DNA of 5,444 nt from Nitrospira sp. (lineage in GTDB: Bacteria; Nitrospirota; Nitrospiria; Nitrospirales; Nitrospiraceae). The stretch is from the NCBI GenBank assembly GCA_015904075.1, contig JABMDH010000003.1, positions 38,425 through 43,868 on the forward strand, read 5' to 3'. Both the position numbers and the translations under genes were made by a program. The notes beneath the pieces were generated by a model. That model had not been told where the DNA came from. It ran no database searches and was given only the letters and a program-made list of their open reading frames with translations. Below, one piece after another: positions 1 to 5,444 of this stretch. Numbering within the stretch: position 1 is the first letter of the stretch; each line of letters starts with the position of its first letter.

Positions 1-264
1 GTCGCCGACAAGACTGGCGCGCAATTCATCAAAGCGGAAAATCTCGGGAAGAAAAAGCTCGCCTATGAAGTGCGCCGTGAGCGGAAGGGCACGTATGCCT
101 ATTTCTACTTCAAGGCGCCGAATAACACGGTCGGTGAACTCGAGCGGGCCTATCGATTAGAAGATAACATTATCAAGTTTCTGACGGTTCATCATGAGAA
201 GCCCTTGGTGGAGCGGCGTCCGCTAGAAGTCTCGGCACAGGAGTCCGACGGTGGCCGGATTTAA
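1..264 (+). CDS. rpsF: 30S ribosomal protein bS6, 3' part (5' end off the window)
   Basis: This is the last 87 codons of ribosomal protein bS6, which binds 16S rRNA as a pair with bS18 in the platform of the small subunit. Reading frame 1 is open from the first base to a TAA at 262-264. The visible part aligns with the E. coli S6 core from memory: a G-x-Q/K-F-I strand, then NLGKKKLAYEVRRERKG (E. coli DWGRRQLAYPIN), the YFYFKAP strand, an ELERAYRLEDNIIKFL helix/strand, and a short charged tail. About 30 N-terminal residues should lie upstream. A GTG at 70 is internal and not the real start. The stop overlaps the ssb start by 14 bases, which suggests translational coupling. rpsR two genes downstream encodes its binding partner, the classic rpsF-ssb-rpsR arrangement. 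Identification is firm. Confidence 0.95.
   Translation, partial: VADKTGAQFIKAENLGKKKLAYEVRRERKGTYAYFYFKAPNNTVGELERAYRLEDNIIKFLTVHHEKPLVERRPLEVSAQESDGGRI
239..243 (+). promoter_or_regulatory. Ribosome binding site of ssb (AGGAG), inside rpsF
   Basis: AGGAG lies 7 bases before the GTG at 251 and within the last codons of rpsF. It supports the GTG start, which gives the expected SSB N-terminus (M-A-G-F-N-K-V-I-L) and makes ssb overlap the rpsF stop. Confidence 0.7.
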
Positions 265-652
265 TAAAGTCATTCTCATGGGGAATCTCACGCGGAATCC
301 CGAGCTGCGGTACACACCGAGCGGGACCCCAGTGGCAAGTTTCGGCCTCGCCGTGAGCCGCCGGTTCAAGCAGGGCGAGGATCTGAAGGAAGAAGTTTGT
401 TTTGTCGATATCGTGGTGTTCGGCAAGCAAGCGGAACATTGCGGGCAGTATCTCAGTAAGGGCAACGGCGCAATCGTCGAGGGACGGCTGCAGCAGCGGC
501 GATGGGAAACCGAAGACGGTCAAAAGCGCAGCAAGCACGAAGTCGTCGCGCAGGCTGTGACGTTTATGCCCAAACGTCAAGAGAGTGGGGCTGCCGGTGC
601 GGAGCCTCCGGCTCACGATGAGCCCGGCTATGACATGGATGAACAAGGTTGA
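251..652 (+). CDS. ssb: Single-stranded DNA-binding protein SSB, short and without the usual C-terminal tip
   Basis: The product is a 133-residue SSB. It coats single-stranded DNA during replication, recombination and repair, normally as a tetramer. Residues 1-108 form one OB fold: FNKVILMGNLTRNPELRYTPSG at the start matches the family signature, followed by PVASFGLAVSRRF, a FVDIVVFGKQAE strand (W/F-x-x-V-V-x-F-G-K), YLSKGNGAIVEGRLQQRRWE, and HEVVAQAVTFM. The tail after the fold is only about 25 residues and ends in D-M-D-E-Q-G. E. coli SSB ends in D-D-D-I-P-F, the peptide that recruits partner proteins. This tail is acidic but lacks the final Pro-Phe, and no frameshift that would restore it is evident just downstream. 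The GTG start is supported by AGGAG 7 bases upstream. The gene sits between rpsF and rpsR, the usual place. Confidence 0.95.
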   Translation: MAGFNKVILMGNLTRNPELRYTPSGTPVASFGLAVSRRFKQGEDLKEEVCFVDIVVFGKQAEHCGQYLSKGNGAIVEGRLQQRRWETEDGQKRSKHEVVAQAVTFMPKRQESGAAGAEPPAHDEPGYDMDEQG

Positions 653-676: not shown

Positions 677-934
677 ATGGAACGGAGTAACGATAGTGAG
701 CGTGGCGGGGGCGGAGGCAGATTGTTTCAGCGGAGGCGGCCGTGCCGCTTTTGCCTGGAGAAGGCTCCGATCGATTTCAAGGACGCCGGGTTGCTGAGAA
801 ATTTTCTGACTGAGCGGGGGCGGATCGTCCCTCGCCGCATTTCGGGAAACTGTATGCGCCATCAACGGGAGTTGACCGTCGCCGTCAAGCGGGCGCGCCA
901 TATCGCCATCATCAGTTTCGCAGAGGAGCGATAA
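677..934 (+). CDS. rpsR: 30S ribosomal protein bS18, zinc-binding (C+) form
   Basis: The product is an 85-residue bS18, which pairs with bS6 on the platform of the small subunit. After a basic, glycine-rich N-terminus (five consecutive Gly) comes RRPCRFC, then [35 protein letters not shown] and [12 protein letters not shown]. This is the full conserved S18 core (E. coli: IDYKD, KNYITESGKIVPSRITG, QRQLARAIKRARYLSLLPY). Cys23, Cys26, Cys59 and His62 form a CxxC...CxxH set, the zinc-binding version that E. coli S18 has lost. ATG 677 is chosen over GTG 674 because of the spacing to GAGGAGG at 665-671. In many bacteria rplI follows rpsR. Here it is absent and a DUF177 gene begins 5 bases after the stop. 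Confidence 0.95.
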
Positions 935-939
935 CAAGC

Positions 940-1590
940 GTGACCGGTGATTGCAGCGTATTGGAGCGGGGCAGCGGTGAGTCGCTGGGGATCGGGATGG
1001 ATCTACTCACACCCAAGATTGCAGATATCACACCGGACGGCGTGTCACTCTCAGGAGATCTGACGGCTGAAGCGCTGGGGCTCACCGATGCGGACGTGTG
1101 TATCCATGGAACATTGTCGGTGGGGCTGGATCTTCGATCTGTCGATCGTACGATCTGTCTGACGGGAGTTGTGGAAGGAACGGCAGTTCATCAATGTGTA
1201 CGCTGTCTCAAGGGTTTTGAGAGTCCCGTCGCCTTCTCTGTGCGCGTTGCCTATGAACGGGAAACCAAGGCTGCGGCACCCGTGGCAAAGCAAGATGTTT
1301 CATGGAAGAAGAACGCAGTGCCGGCGGTTGAACCCAAGCTGGACGAGCCGGACGATGATTTGTATTATTACATAGGTGATCAGCTCGATCTGGCACCGAT
1401 GCTTCGCGAGCAGTTGATCCTTGCTTCTCCAATGCATCCGCTGTGTGTCGAGGAATGTCTTGGGCTCTGCGCCCAATGCGGGAAAAATTTAAATGAGGGG
1501 CCGTGTCACTGCGCCGCGGAACCGACGGGAAGTCCGTTTCAAGTTTTGCGCGGCATGAAAGAAAAGTTGCAAGAGCCTGCTGGCCAGTGA
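940..1590 (+). CDS. yceD: DUF177 / YceD family protein (23S rRNA accumulation protein)
   Basis: The product is a 216-residue member of the DUF177 (YceD) family, which is typically encoded just before rpmF and has been linked to 23S rRNA accumulation. The exact biochemical role is unknown. Visible family marks are a first cysteine pair, CVRC (Cys86, Cys89), in a G-V-V-E-G-T-A-V-H-Q strand. A charged, Pro/Ala-rich linker spans about residues 108-137, then DLYYYIGDQLDLAPMLREQLILASPMHPLC and a cysteine cluster (Cys169, 173, 177, 180, 189, 191) with GLCAQCGKNLN. The cysteines look able to bind metal; that is inference. The start is uncertain. GTG 940 follows AGAGGAG (922-928) at a long 11-base spacing. 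ATG 997 (residue 20) matches where the domain begins but has only a weak GGGG upstream. The gene ends 33 bases before the rpmF-like start stump. Confidence 0.85.
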   Translation: MTGDCSVLERGSGESLGIGMDLLTPKIADITPDGVSLSGDLTAEALGLTDADVCIHGTLSVGLDLRSVDRTICLTGVVEGTAVHQCVRCLKGFESPVAFSVRVAYERETKAAAPVAKQDVSWKKNAVPAVEPKLDEPDDDLYYYIGDQLDLAPMLREQLILASPMHPLCVEECLGLCAQCGKNLNEGPCHCAAEPTGSPFQVLRGMKEKLQEPAGQ

Positions 1591-1612
1591 AAGGTCCGGC
1601 AGTGGCTCGTAG

Positions 1613-1629
1613 AAGGAGTTGCCATGGCG
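1613..1629 (+). pseudogene. rpmF: Stump of rpmF: strong ribosome binding site, ATG and first codons, rest missing
   Basis: AAGGAG (1613-1618) is followed after 5 bases by ATG GCG at 1624. This is ideal initiation context exactly where rpmF (bL32) is expected between yceD and plsX. From that ATG the frame reads only 14 codons to a TGA at 1666-1668. Apart from Met-Ala it does not resemble L32, which normally runs into a basic N-terminus and then a CxxC zinc ribbon. From about 1626 the sequence is plsX in another frame. I infer that a deletion joined the second codon of rpmF to mid-plsX. The shared bases GGCG at the join would permit this, but the original sequence cannot be seen. Confidence 0.55.
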
Positions 1630-2291
1630 TGGAACGGCCGGCGATTGCCACCAGTTTGCCGACGGTGACCGGTGAAGCGATCATCCTTGATGTGGGTGCG
1701 AACGTTGATTGCGGGGCGAAGGATCTCCATCAGTTTGCTGTGATGGGGAATGAGTACGGGAAGTACTTATTCGGCAAGCCCAATCCCCGTGTCGGTCTGC
1801 TGAGCATCGGCGAAGAAGACAGCAAAGGCAATGAGGTCACGAAGGAAGCCTTCAAGCTATTGAAGGCGAGCTCGTTGAATTTCGTCGGCAATATTGAGGG
1901 GCGCGAGGTGTACAGCGGAAATGCGGATGTGGTGGTGTGCGACGGGTTTATTGGAAACGTTGCGCTGAAGATATCCGAAGGCGTTGCCGAGACGATCAGC
2001 AAATTGTTGCTCAAGGAGATTTCAGGCTCCTTGCTCGGACGGCTGGCGTATCCCTTGATTGCAGCTCCTCTGAAGAACCTCAAGCGGCGGATCGATTATG
2101 CCGAGTTCGGCGGCGCCCCGTTGCTTGGAGTCAACGGCATCACAATTATCTGTCATGGCCGTTCGTCGGCAAAAGCCATCAAGAACGCCATTCGTCGGGC
2201 TAAAGGTATGGCTGAAGGACGGGTGCAGGAGCTTATCCAGCGAAATATCGAAGGCAGTCTTGCTCGCCCTTCAGTGGAGCAGGAAACATGA
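1629..2291 (+). CDS. plsX: PlsX phosphate acyltransferase, N-terminally truncated (about 120 residues missing); possible pseudogene
   Basis: PlsX converts acyl-ACP and phosphate into acyl-phosphate for PlsY, the first step of phospholipid synthesis in most bacteria. Here the homology starts abruptly at V-E-R-P-A-I-A-T, which aligns with E. coli PlsX near residue 125 (GIERPALVT). From there it is continuous: DVGANVDC, QFAVMGNEYGK, NPRVGLLSIGEE, VVVCDGFIGNVALK, ISEGVAETI, FGGAPLLGVNG and ICHGRSSAKAIKNAI. The N-terminal part with the usual MGGD and AGNTGA motifs is absent. The frame stays open upstream to 1503, but that stretch is yceD read out of frame, so it is not PlsX protein. A GTG at 1629 lies 10 bases after AAGGAG (1613-1618) and could start a 220-residue fragment. 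Loss of half the catalytic domain should abolish activity. Its stop overlaps the fabH start (ATGA). Confidence 0.85.
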   Translation: MERPAIATSLPTVTGEAIILDVGANVDCGAKDLHQFAVMGNEYGKYLFGKPNPRVGLLSIGEEDSKGNEVTKEAFKLLKASSLNFVGNIEGREVYSGNADVVVCDGFIGNVALKISEGVAETISKLLLKEISGSLLGRLAYPLIAAPLKNLKRRIDYAEFGGAPLLGVNGITIICHGRSSAKAIKNAIRRAKGMAEGRVQELIQRNIEGSLARPSVEQET

Positions 2292-3262
2292 AGTCCCGCA
2301 TTGCCGGCACAGGCTCGTACGCACCTGTCAAGGTGCTGACAAATGCGGATCTTGAACGCATGGTGGCGACCTCGGATGAGTGGATTCGTGAACGGACCGG
2401 TATCCGAGAGCGGCATATCGCAGGTGCCGGAGAGGCATGCTCCGACTTGGCTGTTCAAGCTGGAAAGCGCGCACTGGCGGCGGCAGGTCTTGCCGCCACG
2501 GAGCTTGATATGGTCTTGGTCGCCACCTGTACGGGAGACTATCCACTTCCATCAACGGCCTGTTTGGTGCAGCATCAACTCGGGGCTACCAAGGCGGCGG
2601 CCTGTGACATCGCGGCCGCGTGCTGCGGCTTTGTCTATGCGTTGTCGGTGGCCGATGCGTATGTGAAGGCCGGGATGCGTCATGTCCTGGTGATTGGATC
2701 GGAAGTGATGTCCGCCATTACAGATTGGACGGATCGGAATACCTGTGTCCTATTCGGAGACGGGGCTGGAGCGGCGGTTGTCAGTGCGAGTGATGGAGAG
2801 CGGGGTATTTTGTCTACCCACCTTCGATCCGATGGAAAATTAAATGAACTGATCGCCGTGCCAGGGGGCGGATCTCGGATGCCACCGTCTCAAAAAACTA
2901 TTGCGGAACGAATGCAATGTATCAAGATGAAGGGGCATGAAACCTTCAAGGTCGCGGTGCGAAACCTTGAGGAGATCGCCCGGGAAACCTTGGCCGCGAA
3001 TCATCTCCGTGTGGAAGACCTTGATTTGTATGTGCCCCATCAGGCCAATTTCAGGATTCTCACGGCGGTGATGGAACGGCTCGGTCTTCCAGAGGAAAAA
3101 GTGATGCTCAATCTCGACCGGTATGGCAATACGTCGGCTGCGTCGATTCCGATTGCGTTGGATGAAGCGGTGCGTGCGGGGCGTATCAGGGACGGATCGC
3201 TGGTCATGCTCGGAGCATTTGGGGCCGGGTTGACATGGGCCTCTGCTATGATCCGGTGGTAA
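2288..3262 (+). CDS. fabH: Beta-ketoacyl-ACP synthase III
   Basis: FabH condenses an acyl-CoA primer (typically acetyl-CoA) with malonyl-ACP to start each fatty acid chain. The protein has 324 residues, the normal length. The thiolase-fold halves are complete. Residues 30-43 (DEWIRERTGIRERH) are the family signature. The nucleophile is Cys112 in A-A-C-C-G-F, at the same number as in E. coli, followed by a second Cys113 where E. coli has Ala. His251 lies in VPHQAN and Asn281 in GNTSAAS, completing the Cys-His-Asn triad. FGDGAGAAV (156-164) and the C-terminal GAFGAGLTWASAMIRW are also typical. ATG 2288 overlaps the plsX stop by four bases (ATGA), and GGAG at 2276-2279 gives an 8-base spacing, so translation is probably coupled to plsX. 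No deletion is seen here, unlike the genes on both sides. Confidence 0.97.
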   Translation: MKSRIAGTGSYAPVKVLTNADLERMVATSDEWIRERTGIRERHIAGAGEACSDLAVQAGKRALAAAGLAATELDMVLVATCTGDYPLPSTACLVQHQLGATKAAACDIAAACCGFVYALSVADAYVKAGMRHVLVIGSEVMSAITDWTDRNTCVLFGDGAGAAVVSASDGERGILSTHLRSDGKLNELIAVPGGGSRMPPSQKTIAERMQCIKMKGHETFKVAVRNLEEIARETLAANHLRVEDLDLYVPHQANFRILTAVMERLGLPEEKVMLNLDRYGNTSAASIPIALDEAVRAGRIRDGSLVMLGAFGAGLTWASAMIRW

Positions 3263-3336: not shown

Positions 3337-4119
3337 ATGACATCCGGGATCGGCCTGGTATTCCCAGGCCAAGGTTCGCAGTCTGTGAGCAGTATCGCTG
3401 CGTTGAAAACATTGGAGTCAGCAGGGATACAGCCAGTTGCAGTGGCAGGTCACAGTTTGGGTGAGTATTCGGCGCTGGTAGCGGCAGGTGGTGTGTCGTT
3501 TCGGGATGCAGTCGGATTGGTCCAAAAGCGCGGCCGCTATATGTCAGAAGCCGTGGCTCCGGGTACAGGTCTTGTCGCCGCGTTGTTGGGCTTGACGCCG
3601 GATGTCGTCAAAGATGTTTGTCGAGCGGCATCAGTGGTTGGAGTCGTGGCTGCTGCCAATTTCAATTCGCCGGGCCAGGTCGTGATTGCCGGTGAAAAGG
3701 CGGCGGTGGAACGGGCTATCGAGTTGGCCAAAGAGAAAGGCTGCAAGAAGGCGATTCCTTTGCCGGTGAGTGTGCCGGTACATACGCCGTTGATGCAGCG
3801 CGCGGCCGATCGATTGGCCAAGGACCTGGCGGCAATCCGCTGGTCGGACCTTCGGGCGCCCCTCATCAATAATGCTGAGGCGCGGGCGATCAGCCGAGCG
3901 AACGAAATTCACGCGTCGTTGGTCAAGCAATTGCCGTCTTCCGTGCTATGGGAAGACACGATCAGGACCATGGGCACGATGGGGGTGACGACGTTCGTGG
4001 AGGTAGGGCCGGGGGCGGTGTTGACCGGCTTAATCAAGCGTATTCTTCCCGAGGCGCGTCTGCTGAATGTGAACGATCCCAAGTCGCTGGAAACCACCTT
4101 GAACAACGTGAACAGGTGA
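3337..4119 (+). CDS. fabD: Malonyl-CoA:ACP transacylase with a 53-residue internal loss
   Basis: FabD moves malonyl groups from CoA to ACP, supplying the extender for fatty acid synthesis. The N-terminus LVFPGQGSQ carries the oxyanion Gln12. The nucleophile Ser40 lies in GHSLGEYSA, Arg65 in QKRGRYMSEAV and His149 in PVSVPVHTPLM. The C-terminal VEVGPGAVLTGLIKRI is normal. The E. coli equivalents are Gln11, Ser92, Arg117 and His201. The offset jumps from +1 to -52 and then stays constant, so 53 residues are missing between V17 and S18 (join near nt 3387). They correspond to E. coli residues 17-69, which include the conserved TQPALLT segment. The protein is 260 residues, against about 310 for the family. 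The frame is kept, but the lost helices belong to the hydrolase core, so activity is doubtful. A stop at 3328-3330 rules out an upstream start. The ATG lacks a good ribosome binding site. Confidence 0.92.
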   Translation: MTSGIGLVFPGQGSQSVSSIAALKTLESAGIQPVAVAGHSLGEYSALVAAGGVSFRDAVGLVQKRGRYMSEAVAPGTGLVAALLGLTPDVVKDVCRAASVVGVVAAANFNSPGQVVIAGEKAAVERAIELAKEKGCKKAIPLPVSVPVHTPLMQRAADRLAKDLAAIRWSDLRAPLINNAEARAISRANEIHASLVKQLPSSVLWEDTIRTMGTMGVTTFVEVGPGAVLTGLIKRILPEARLLNVNDPKSLETTLNNVNR

Positions 4120-4189: not shown

Positions 4190-4933
4190 ATGTCTTTGCA
4201 GGGAAGGGTTGCAATTGTTACTGGTGCCGCGCAGGGAATCGGTCGGGCCATTGCTGAAACCCTTGCGCAAGCAGGCGCAGATATCGTGGTCGGTGATATT
4301 GATCCGGGCCGTTCCCTCGAAACCGTGAACGCAGTTGAGAAGCTGGGGCGGAGGGCGTTGAATGTCAAAGTCAACGTCGCGGAGGCCGATGACACCAAAG
4401 CGATGGTTGAGCAGGTGCTCAAGGCATGGGGGAAAATCGATATCCTGGTCAATAATGCCGGGATCACCCGTGATGGCCTCTTGCTGCGTATGAAAGAAGA
4501 GGATTGGAACCTGGTGCTTCAGGTCAATCTCAATGGAACCTTCAATTGCACGAAGGCGGTCTTGCAGGCAATGACTAAGCAGCGGTATGGTCGTATCGTG
4601 AATATTGCATCGATCGTGGGAGTCATGGGCAACGCAGGGCAGGCCAATTACGCCGCGTCGAAAGCGGCCGTCATCGGCTTTACCAAAACGGTTGGACGGG
4701 AATATGCCAGCCGCAATGTTACGGTCAATGCCGTGGCTCCTGGCTTTATCGATACTGCGATGACCCATGGGTTGTCGGCAGATGTGAAAGAGACGCTGCA
4801 GAAGCAGATTCCGTTGGGCCGGCTTGGTACACCGGCGGACATTGCGGCGGCTGTGCGGTTTCTCGTGTCCGAAGACGCAGCCTATATTACCGGCCATGTG
4901 TTACATGTAAACGGTGGAATGTTGATGGCGTGA
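4190..4933 (+). CDS. fabG: 3-oxoacyl-ACP reductase
   Basis: FabG reduces beta-ketoacyl-ACP to beta-hydroxyacyl-ACP with NADPH, the first reduction in each elongation cycle. It is a classical short-chain dehydrogenase of 247 residues, full family length. The cofactor loop is TGAAQGIG (11-18). NNAG is at 88-91. The catalytic tetrad is Asn113 (VNLNG), Ser141 (NIASIVG), Tyr154 and Lys158 (YAASK), each three higher than in E. coli FabG. PG at 184-185 and the C-terminal ITGHVLHVNGGMLM are standard. ATG 4190 is chosen from the ribosome binding site spacing. The gene lies 70 bases after fabD and 91 before acpP, the common fabD-fabG-acpP order. No damage is seen. Confidence 0.97.
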   Translation: MSLQGRVAIVTGAAQGIGRAIAETLAQAGADIVVGDIDPGRSLETVNAVEKLGRRALNVKVNVAEADDTKAMVEQVLKAWGKIDILVNNAGITRDGLLLRMKEEDWNLVLQVNLNGTFNCTKAVLQAMTKQRYGRIVNIASIVGVMGNAGQANYAASKAAVIGFTKTVGREYASRNVTVNAVAPGFIDTAMTHGLSADVKETLQKQIPLGRLGTPADIAAAVRFLVSEDAAYITGHVLHVNGGMLMA

Positions 4934-5006
4934 GGCATCGGAGCTGATTTCAATGTATGGCCGTGACAGATCCCCATGTGACGGCGACGAGTGAGTCCTA
5001 TCGGGG

Positions 5007-5024: not shown

Positions 5025-5258
5025 ATGGCAACCGTTGAGGAACGTGTAAAAAAGATTATTGCCGAGCAGCTTGGTGTGGAGGAGGATGAAGTGACCCCTG
5101 AGGCATCCTTCGTCGAAGACCTCGGCGCCGATTCGCTCGACACGGTCGAGCTGGTGATGGCGCTTGAAGAGGAGTTCTCGATCGAGATTCCGGATGAGGA
5201 TGCGGAGAAGATTCTCACGGTTGGAAAGGCCCTGGATTACATCAAGGAAAAATCATAA
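5025..5258 (+). CDS. acpP: Acyl carrier protein
   Basis: The product is a 77-residue acidic acyl carrier protein, full length. It holds growing acyl chains on a phosphopantetheine arm attached to Ser37 in the [10 protein letters not shown] motif. Helix I is about residues 3-16 ([14 protein letters not shown]). Helix II (37-51, [15 protein letters not shown]) is the surface recognised by FabD, FabH, FabG, FabF and PlsX. The C-terminus [21 protein letters not shown] is typical. It is translated from a strong double ribosome binding site and sits between fabG and fabF as in most bacteria. The 91-base gap before it shows no convincing promoter. A TCCCC/GGGGA pair (4971-4975 with 5003-5007) is too weak to call a structure. 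Confidence 0.97.
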
Positions 5259-5272
5259 GGCCCATCTTTGTG

Positions 5273-5444
5273 ATGTCTGATCGACCTACACGCCGAGTTG
5301 TTGTGACCGGCCTCGGATTAGTGACTCCCCTCGGTACGGGTGTCGAAAAAACATGGAACGCTCTCTGTGCTGGAGAGTCGGGGATCCGCCGGATCACTCG
5401 CTTTGATCCGGCCGGGTATGATGCACAGATTGCCGGGGAAGTCA
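5273..5444 (+). CDS. fabF: Beta-ketoacyl-ACP synthase II, 5' part (runs off the window)
   Basis: This is the first 57 codons of the elongation condensing enzyme FabF, which extends acyl-ACP with malonyl-ACP. RRVVVTGLGLVTPLGTGVEKTWNALCAGESGIRRITRFDP is the standard N-terminus of the FabF/FabB family. The catalytic Cys-His-His residues lie beyond the window. ATG 5273 gives the usual M-S-x-R start. A GTG at 5270, immediately before it and in frame, sits 9 bases after TAAGG (5256-5260) and is an equal alternative. It follows acpP by 14 bases, as is common for acpP-fabF. FabF is preferred over FabB because of this context. Confidence 0.93.
   Translation, partial: MSDRPTRRVVVTGLGLVTPLGTGVEKTWNALCAGESGIRRITRFDPAGYDAQIAGEV

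Follow-up and report, generated by a model that had tools for sequence, protein, structure and literature searches.

Apparent loss of rpmF and of parts of plsX and fabD from a Nitrospira operon most likely reflects unmarked local assembly errors

Comparison of a Nitrospira sp. operon with related loci revealed two places at which coding sequence is missing, one comprising nearly all of rpmF together with the 5' part of plsX and the other 52 codons of fabD. Judged by these sequence comparisons, both missing pieces are very probably local errors of metagenome assembly that left no mark in the record. The apparent loss is thus most likely not a real change in a living cell, and rpmF, plsX and fabD are most likely intact in the cell and arranged in their usual order. 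The stretch of DNA analysed, referred to as the window, comprises 5,444 nucleotides (positions 38,425 to 43,868, forward strand, of contig JABMDH010000003.1 in assembly GCA_015904075.1). It holds the operon rpsF-ssb-rpsR-yceD-(rpmF)-plsX-fabH-fabD-fabG-acpP-fabF on the + strand, with the following features:

1..264, + strand: rpsF (bS6), 5' end outside the window (Pfam PF01250, NCBIfam TIGR00166)
251..652, + strand: ssb (PF00436, TIGR00621)
677..934, + strand: rpsR (bS18) (PF01084, TIGR00165)
940..1590, + strand: yceD (DUF177) (PF02620)
1614..1626, + strand: sole remainder of rpmF, namely the ribosome binding site AGGAG and the start codon ATG (alignment with the rpmF start of L003, L004, L008 and L081)
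1626..1627, no strand: junction 1, lacking 811 bp that both of the closest relatives have (remainder of rpmF, spacer and the first ~119 codons of plsX; alignments)
1629..2291, + strand: plsX remnant of 220 codons if read from a possible GTG start, corresponding to PlsX residues 120-339 (TIGR00182 profile 118-329 of 337)
2288..3262, + strand: fabH, intact (TIGR00747 profile 1-322 of 322)
3337..4119, + strand: fabD, 52 codons (about residues 17-68) absent in frame (TIGR00128, 251.8 bits versus cut-off 260.9; alignments)
3384..3388, no strand: junction 2, with 156 bp absent inside fabD (equal in size in all 7 comparisons with other loci; backed by 7 loci in the loss scan)
4190..4933, + strand: fabG, intact (TIGR01830)
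5025..5258, + strand: acpP (acyl carrier protein), open frame, named by eye and synteny; constrained
5270..5444, + strand: 5' part of fabF, running off the window; open frame, named by eye and synteny

The ssb gene starts with GTG and overlaps the 3' end of rpsF by 14 bases (251-264). Among species-representative genomes, the closest relatives of the window are Nitrospira-type MAGs with FabH identities of 96% (locus L001) and 94% (L002). The yceD-rpmF-plsX-fabH-fabD-fabG-acpP cluster of Nitrospira relatives has the same gene order as the window, and yceD, rpmF, plsX and fabH are all present in 55 of 61 loci; in the window, by contrast, rpmF is gone and plsX and fabD are truncated. In E. coli and Rhodobacter capsulatus, rpmF and plsX likewise lie in one operon, according to an excerpt of a published study (PMC11381497).

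At junction 1, an AGGAG (1614-1618) precedes an ATG (1624-1626) whose frame closes after 14 codons, just as an earlier note on this DNA had described for the site where rpmF belongs. Bases up to 1626 align with the rpmF start of relatives and those from 1626 onwards with plsX from codon ~119. A relative's PlsX matched the window over residues 119-339 only in a tblastn search, and a relative's bL32 gave no significant tblastn match in the window (best E 0.61), with no bL32 coding sequence between yceD and plsX. Alignment and tblastn hence agree with the earlier note on the gene content and on the site of the loss, a single junction near 1626 that removes rpmF and the first part of plsX. The PlsX domain is incomplete in the window (PF02504 profile 120-321 of 324, TIGR00182 118-329 of 337); despite this truncation the remnant passes the TIGR00182 cut-off (253.1 bits versus 243.4), and a possible GTG start located 10 nt after AGGAG keeps it translatable.

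The extent of the loss is larger than the 0.55-0.6 kb proposed in that note. The contigs of the two closest MAGs stop within the rpmF-plsX interval, and neighbouring contigs (L081, L082) were added to measure it; based on the coordinates of the overlapping contigs, 811 bp are missing compared with both. The corresponding values are 819, 860, 754 and 687 bp against L003, L004, L008 and L009. The left side of junction 1 is supported by L003, L004 and L008, these being among the 40 of 80 loci listed in the first alignment of the window to relatives, and in addition by L081 and L082.

Judged on the flanks of relatives, shared bases at the joins do not exceed what is expected by chance, and microhomology through GGCG was rejected. 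Junction 1 shares about 1 bp with the flanks of the closest relatives, or up to 3 bp if the strain had ATGGC, and junction 2 shares 2-3 bp with relatives' flanks; some loci in the loss scan described below have 2-3 unaligned bases at junction 2 in place of shared ones. A GGCG shared at the first join, assumed previously from an rpmF start ATGGCG, does not fit the closest relatives, both of which start rpmF with ATGCC, as do 42 of the 59 Nitrospira-like loci with a match (ATGGC in 16; one cut by a contig end). Of the two origins offered on that basis, the argument for microhomology falls away and misassembly is favoured.

Two further candidates for the origin of junction 1 were discarded. A two-species chimera is at odds with the similar identities left and right of the join (91.8%/92.5% for the G001 pieces and 83.2%/85.4% for the G002 pieces), with both sides appearing to belong to a single species. 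An interspersed repeat in the rpmF-plsX spacer was dismissed for the nearest lineage, where the L001 spacer has matches in just 2 of 7 genomes, at its own locus and in copies at contig ends. In L004, the spacer (3663-3960) is an interspersed repeat with inverted ends and arms of ~20 nt, with 1-32 matches per genome in 7 genomes. The spacers of L003 and L045 contain an interspersed repeat of the same kind, which may be relevant to the loss in L045 described below.

A second loss, not described in the earlier note, of exactly 156 bp, equivalent to 52 codons in frame, is located in fabD at about 3384-3388, 1.76 kb downstream of junction 1, and has the same size compared with all seven loci examined (L001, L002, L003, L004, L008, L009 and L017). 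FabD of the window consists of 260 instead of 312 residues and, with 251.8 bits, falls under the TIGR00128 equivalog cut-off of 260.9. It retains the motifs GQGSQ and GHSLG. No 21-mers are shared at junction 2. Two truncated database FabD proteins, P0033 and P0045, begin 0 and 7 residues from its right edge, which is no more than suggestive of a site that is hard to assemble. General compaction of the operon was rejected as a cause; right of junction 1, no loss of more than 1 bp besides the 156 bp in fabD was seen compared with L001 and L002. It is the presence of this second deletion that shifts the balance towards assembly error.

The remaining codons are under purifying selection. For the plsX remnant, dN/dS is 0.040 compared with L001 and 0.047 compared with L002; the values are 0.065 for the fabD remnant (L002) and 0.062 and 0.038 for fabH. 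Against L004, L008 and L009, fabD (0.070-0.098) is somewhat above fabH (0.037-0.042). The comparison of fabD with L003 gave no usable dS, and the plsX piece of L009 has one stop in the compared segment.

Intact alleles occur close to the window. FabD proteins P0026-P0030 are 98-99% identical over the retained parts and contain the missing segment (their listed starts lie 18 residues in); the same identity over the retained part and presence of the missing segment hold for PlsX protein P0121. The missing sequence is also present in P0002, P0003, L001 and L002. Among the loci with a match, a relative's protein is spanned in 75 of 77 cases for FabD, 76 of 78 for PlsX and 72 of 76 for bL32, the exceptions being contig ends or diverged matches. 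Neither junction was found in the other loci examined. Relatives with the same short arrangement, which the earlier note had considered, are thus not among them; L045 differs; its own unmarked loss begins within the same spacer between rpmF and plsX. Viral contigs yielded neither a FabH relative nor the junction. A PlsX relative of 252 aa on a 67,128-bp contig (P0204) is listed as a protein without the first 87 residues, possibly due to another such truncation, a contig end or the start-site call.

Copy numbers were surveyed in the genomes of 14 relatives. All 14 have a single PlsX. bL32 also occurs in every one of them, as a single copy save for one extra contig-end fragment. FabD over the cut-off is present, as a single copy, in 13, the remaining one being cut by a contig end. 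PlsY is present in 12 (over the cut-off in 11), and PlsB over the cut-off was found in none, with one weak match below it. FabD is an essential enzyme. In B. subtilis, which does without PlsB, PlsX and PlsY are essential according to an excerpt of PMC1950310, and loss of bL32 is tolerated in Glaesserella parasuis and B. subtilis as stated in the excerpt of PMC11381497. A cell affected by all three losses would presumably fail to grow unless it had further copies.

The contigs of relatives also suggest that the region around junction 1 is difficult to assemble. The two closest MAGs each have a contig that starts within rpmF and was left unjoined to its neighbour, with an overlap of 164 bp (97.6% identity, L001/L081) or 344 bp (98.3%, L002/L082); such ends would reflect strain variants that the assembler did not merge. 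Upstream of plsX, 14 contig ends were counted over 3.9 kb, five of them in the last 400 bp, where 1.4 would be expected (p 0.010, with the bin chosen post hoc); this count omits L060, whose contig starts inside plsX, and L080, which is limited by the flank requested. The most widely shared 21-mer of the L004 operon, present in 12 of 35 other loci, begins at rpmF codon 3; elsewhere, others reach up to 11 of 35 and 10 of 35.

Similar unmarked losses of essential-type genes were detected in 2 of 61 Nitrospira-like loci, L030 and L045. Indicating an observation beyond chance, a scan of the window and these 61 loci, in which support from at least four other loci was required, flagged only fabD of the window, L030 and one place in L045; the scan is blind to junction 1, where the 3' end of yceD is diverged and few loci align on the left, and to the plsX loss in L045. 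None of 567 gene instances had 15 or more residues missing inside its best match, a measure that cannot register the loss of a whole gene or of an N-terminus, as seen in L045 and L030. In a survey of gene presence, flags for rpsR and rpsF other than that for L030 rpsR were taken to reflect ordinary length differences, and a flag for L045 fabG an N gap.

In L030 (SWDR01000003.1, Nitrospira RSF8; 3098-3101), 450 bp are absent, and the 5' part of rpsR runs directly into the middle of yceD, the join having 1 bp in common; rpsR was not found elsewhere in this genome record (2.0 Mb). In L045 (SWDN01000005.1, Nitrospira RSF48; 4999-5001), 1,338 bp are absent and the rpmF-plsX spacer is joined to fabH such that plsX and the 5' end of fabH are lost; no PlsX was found in its genome record. 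A further unmarked loss of 379-392 bp lies downstream on the same scaffold (8788-8790), which also contains runs of 100 N at 2947-3046 and 7395-7494. Although both MAGs may be incomplete, the sequences flanking the lost genes were recovered and abut each other directly. In its excerpted text, a paper on rapid-sand-filter MAGs (PMC8751384) calls RSF8 the most microdiverse of its species, and gives IDBA-UD as the assembler of the reads and MeDuSa as the scaffolding tool for the Nitrospira bins. It is tied to L030 by the isolate name RSF8 only, and RSF48 is not named in the excerpt.

Based on these data, we propose that reads from a strain-diverse Nitrospira population left two places unresolved, the conserved 5' end of rpmF and a site within fabD, and that the sequences flanking each of these places would have been joined without a marked gap. 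Since the joins share no sequence long enough for k-mer collapse, the faulty step would be gap closing, scaffolding or chimeric reads. Support for misassembly comes from two independent losses only 1.76 kb apart within otherwise clean coding sequence, from the constrained remnants, from the 98-99% identical alleles that carry the missing segments, from the single copies in relatives, from the contig breaks at rpmF and from the precedents in L030 and L045. Several observations speak against it. The one contig encoding an identical FabD (P0001), of which the window is probably a part, is long (59,534 bp), and the P0001 cluster has a second member. The loss in fabD is exactly in frame, for which the chance is 1 in 3, while the GTG start keeps plsX translatable and the PlsX remnant is still over the TIGR00182 cut-off. 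Finally, the joins share no long sequence, and no k-mer at junction 2, so that plain k-mer collapse fails as an explanation.

Some of these observations would fit deletions that are real and recent, generated by end joining with 0-3 shared bases in cells that are a dying variant or are rescued by intact copies elsewhere in the genome. Clean joins, a fabD gene still in frame, a possible start for plsX and matching identities on both sides of junction 1 are compatible with this. We nevertheless consider it unlikely, as two large hits would have occurred within 1.8 kb in genes expected to be essential, intact close alleles exist, and the 14 genomes, which are those of relatives and not the window's own, contain no second PlsX, bL32 gene or over-cut-off FabD. 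If the window represented a second, decaying copy of the operon beside an intact one in the same genome, the two losses would be harmless to the cell; given that the other genes are intact and constrained, that both remnants are constrained too, and that relatives have single copies, such a copy appears highly improbable.

Most difficult to accept is that PlsX and FabD, though shortened, function as reduced enzymes in a viable lineage without bL32, a reading to which we give almost no credence. Both remnants are translatable, FabD keeps GQGSQ and GHSLG, PlsX exceeds the TIGR00182 cut-off, and loss of bL32 is tolerated in the two species mentioned above (PMC11381497, excerpt). However, the sequences of solved PlsX and FabD structures align across the lost segments, and neither join occurs in any other locus examined. 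Models of the remnants were poor (mean pLDDT 51.9 and 52.2), which with shallow alignments and no intact control proves little. A broader reading, which overlaps with that of real deletions and that of reduced enzymes, invokes a living Nitrospira lineage that lacks bL32 and relies either on a PlsX truncated at the N-terminus together with a 260-residue FabD or on unlinked replacements, and in which the interval between rpmF and plsX would be a hot spot of deletion that has also affected the lineage of L045; we regard this as very unlikely.

If the losses are assembly artefacts, they serve as a warning that genes expected to be essential are deleted without any mark from public Nitrospira contigs of 60-280 kb. 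Users of such records could take these deletions for true gene loss or for novel short enzymes, exemplified by a protein cluster of 260-residue 'FabD' and a missing bL32. If, on the other hand, the deletions were real, the essential status of PlsX and FabD would be called into question by a bacterium that has no PlsB and lives with the former broken and the latter shortened.

Local errors in MAG assemblies have been described before, and IDBA-UD was suspected of causing them frequently (Chen et al. 2020, PMC7111523, excerpt). As far as the excerpt goes, those errors differ from the ones proposed here in that they comprise unsupported sequence, N gaps and wrong repeat numbers, with clean deletions not specifically described; they would resemble the window in unsupported joins within contigs and in incomplete or incorrect genes that enter public records. 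L030 and L045 differ from the window in their endpoints. As in the window, their joins are clean and unmarked, with 0-2 bases in common, and essential-type genes of this operon are lost there; by analogy, the losses in all three loci may share a common cause.
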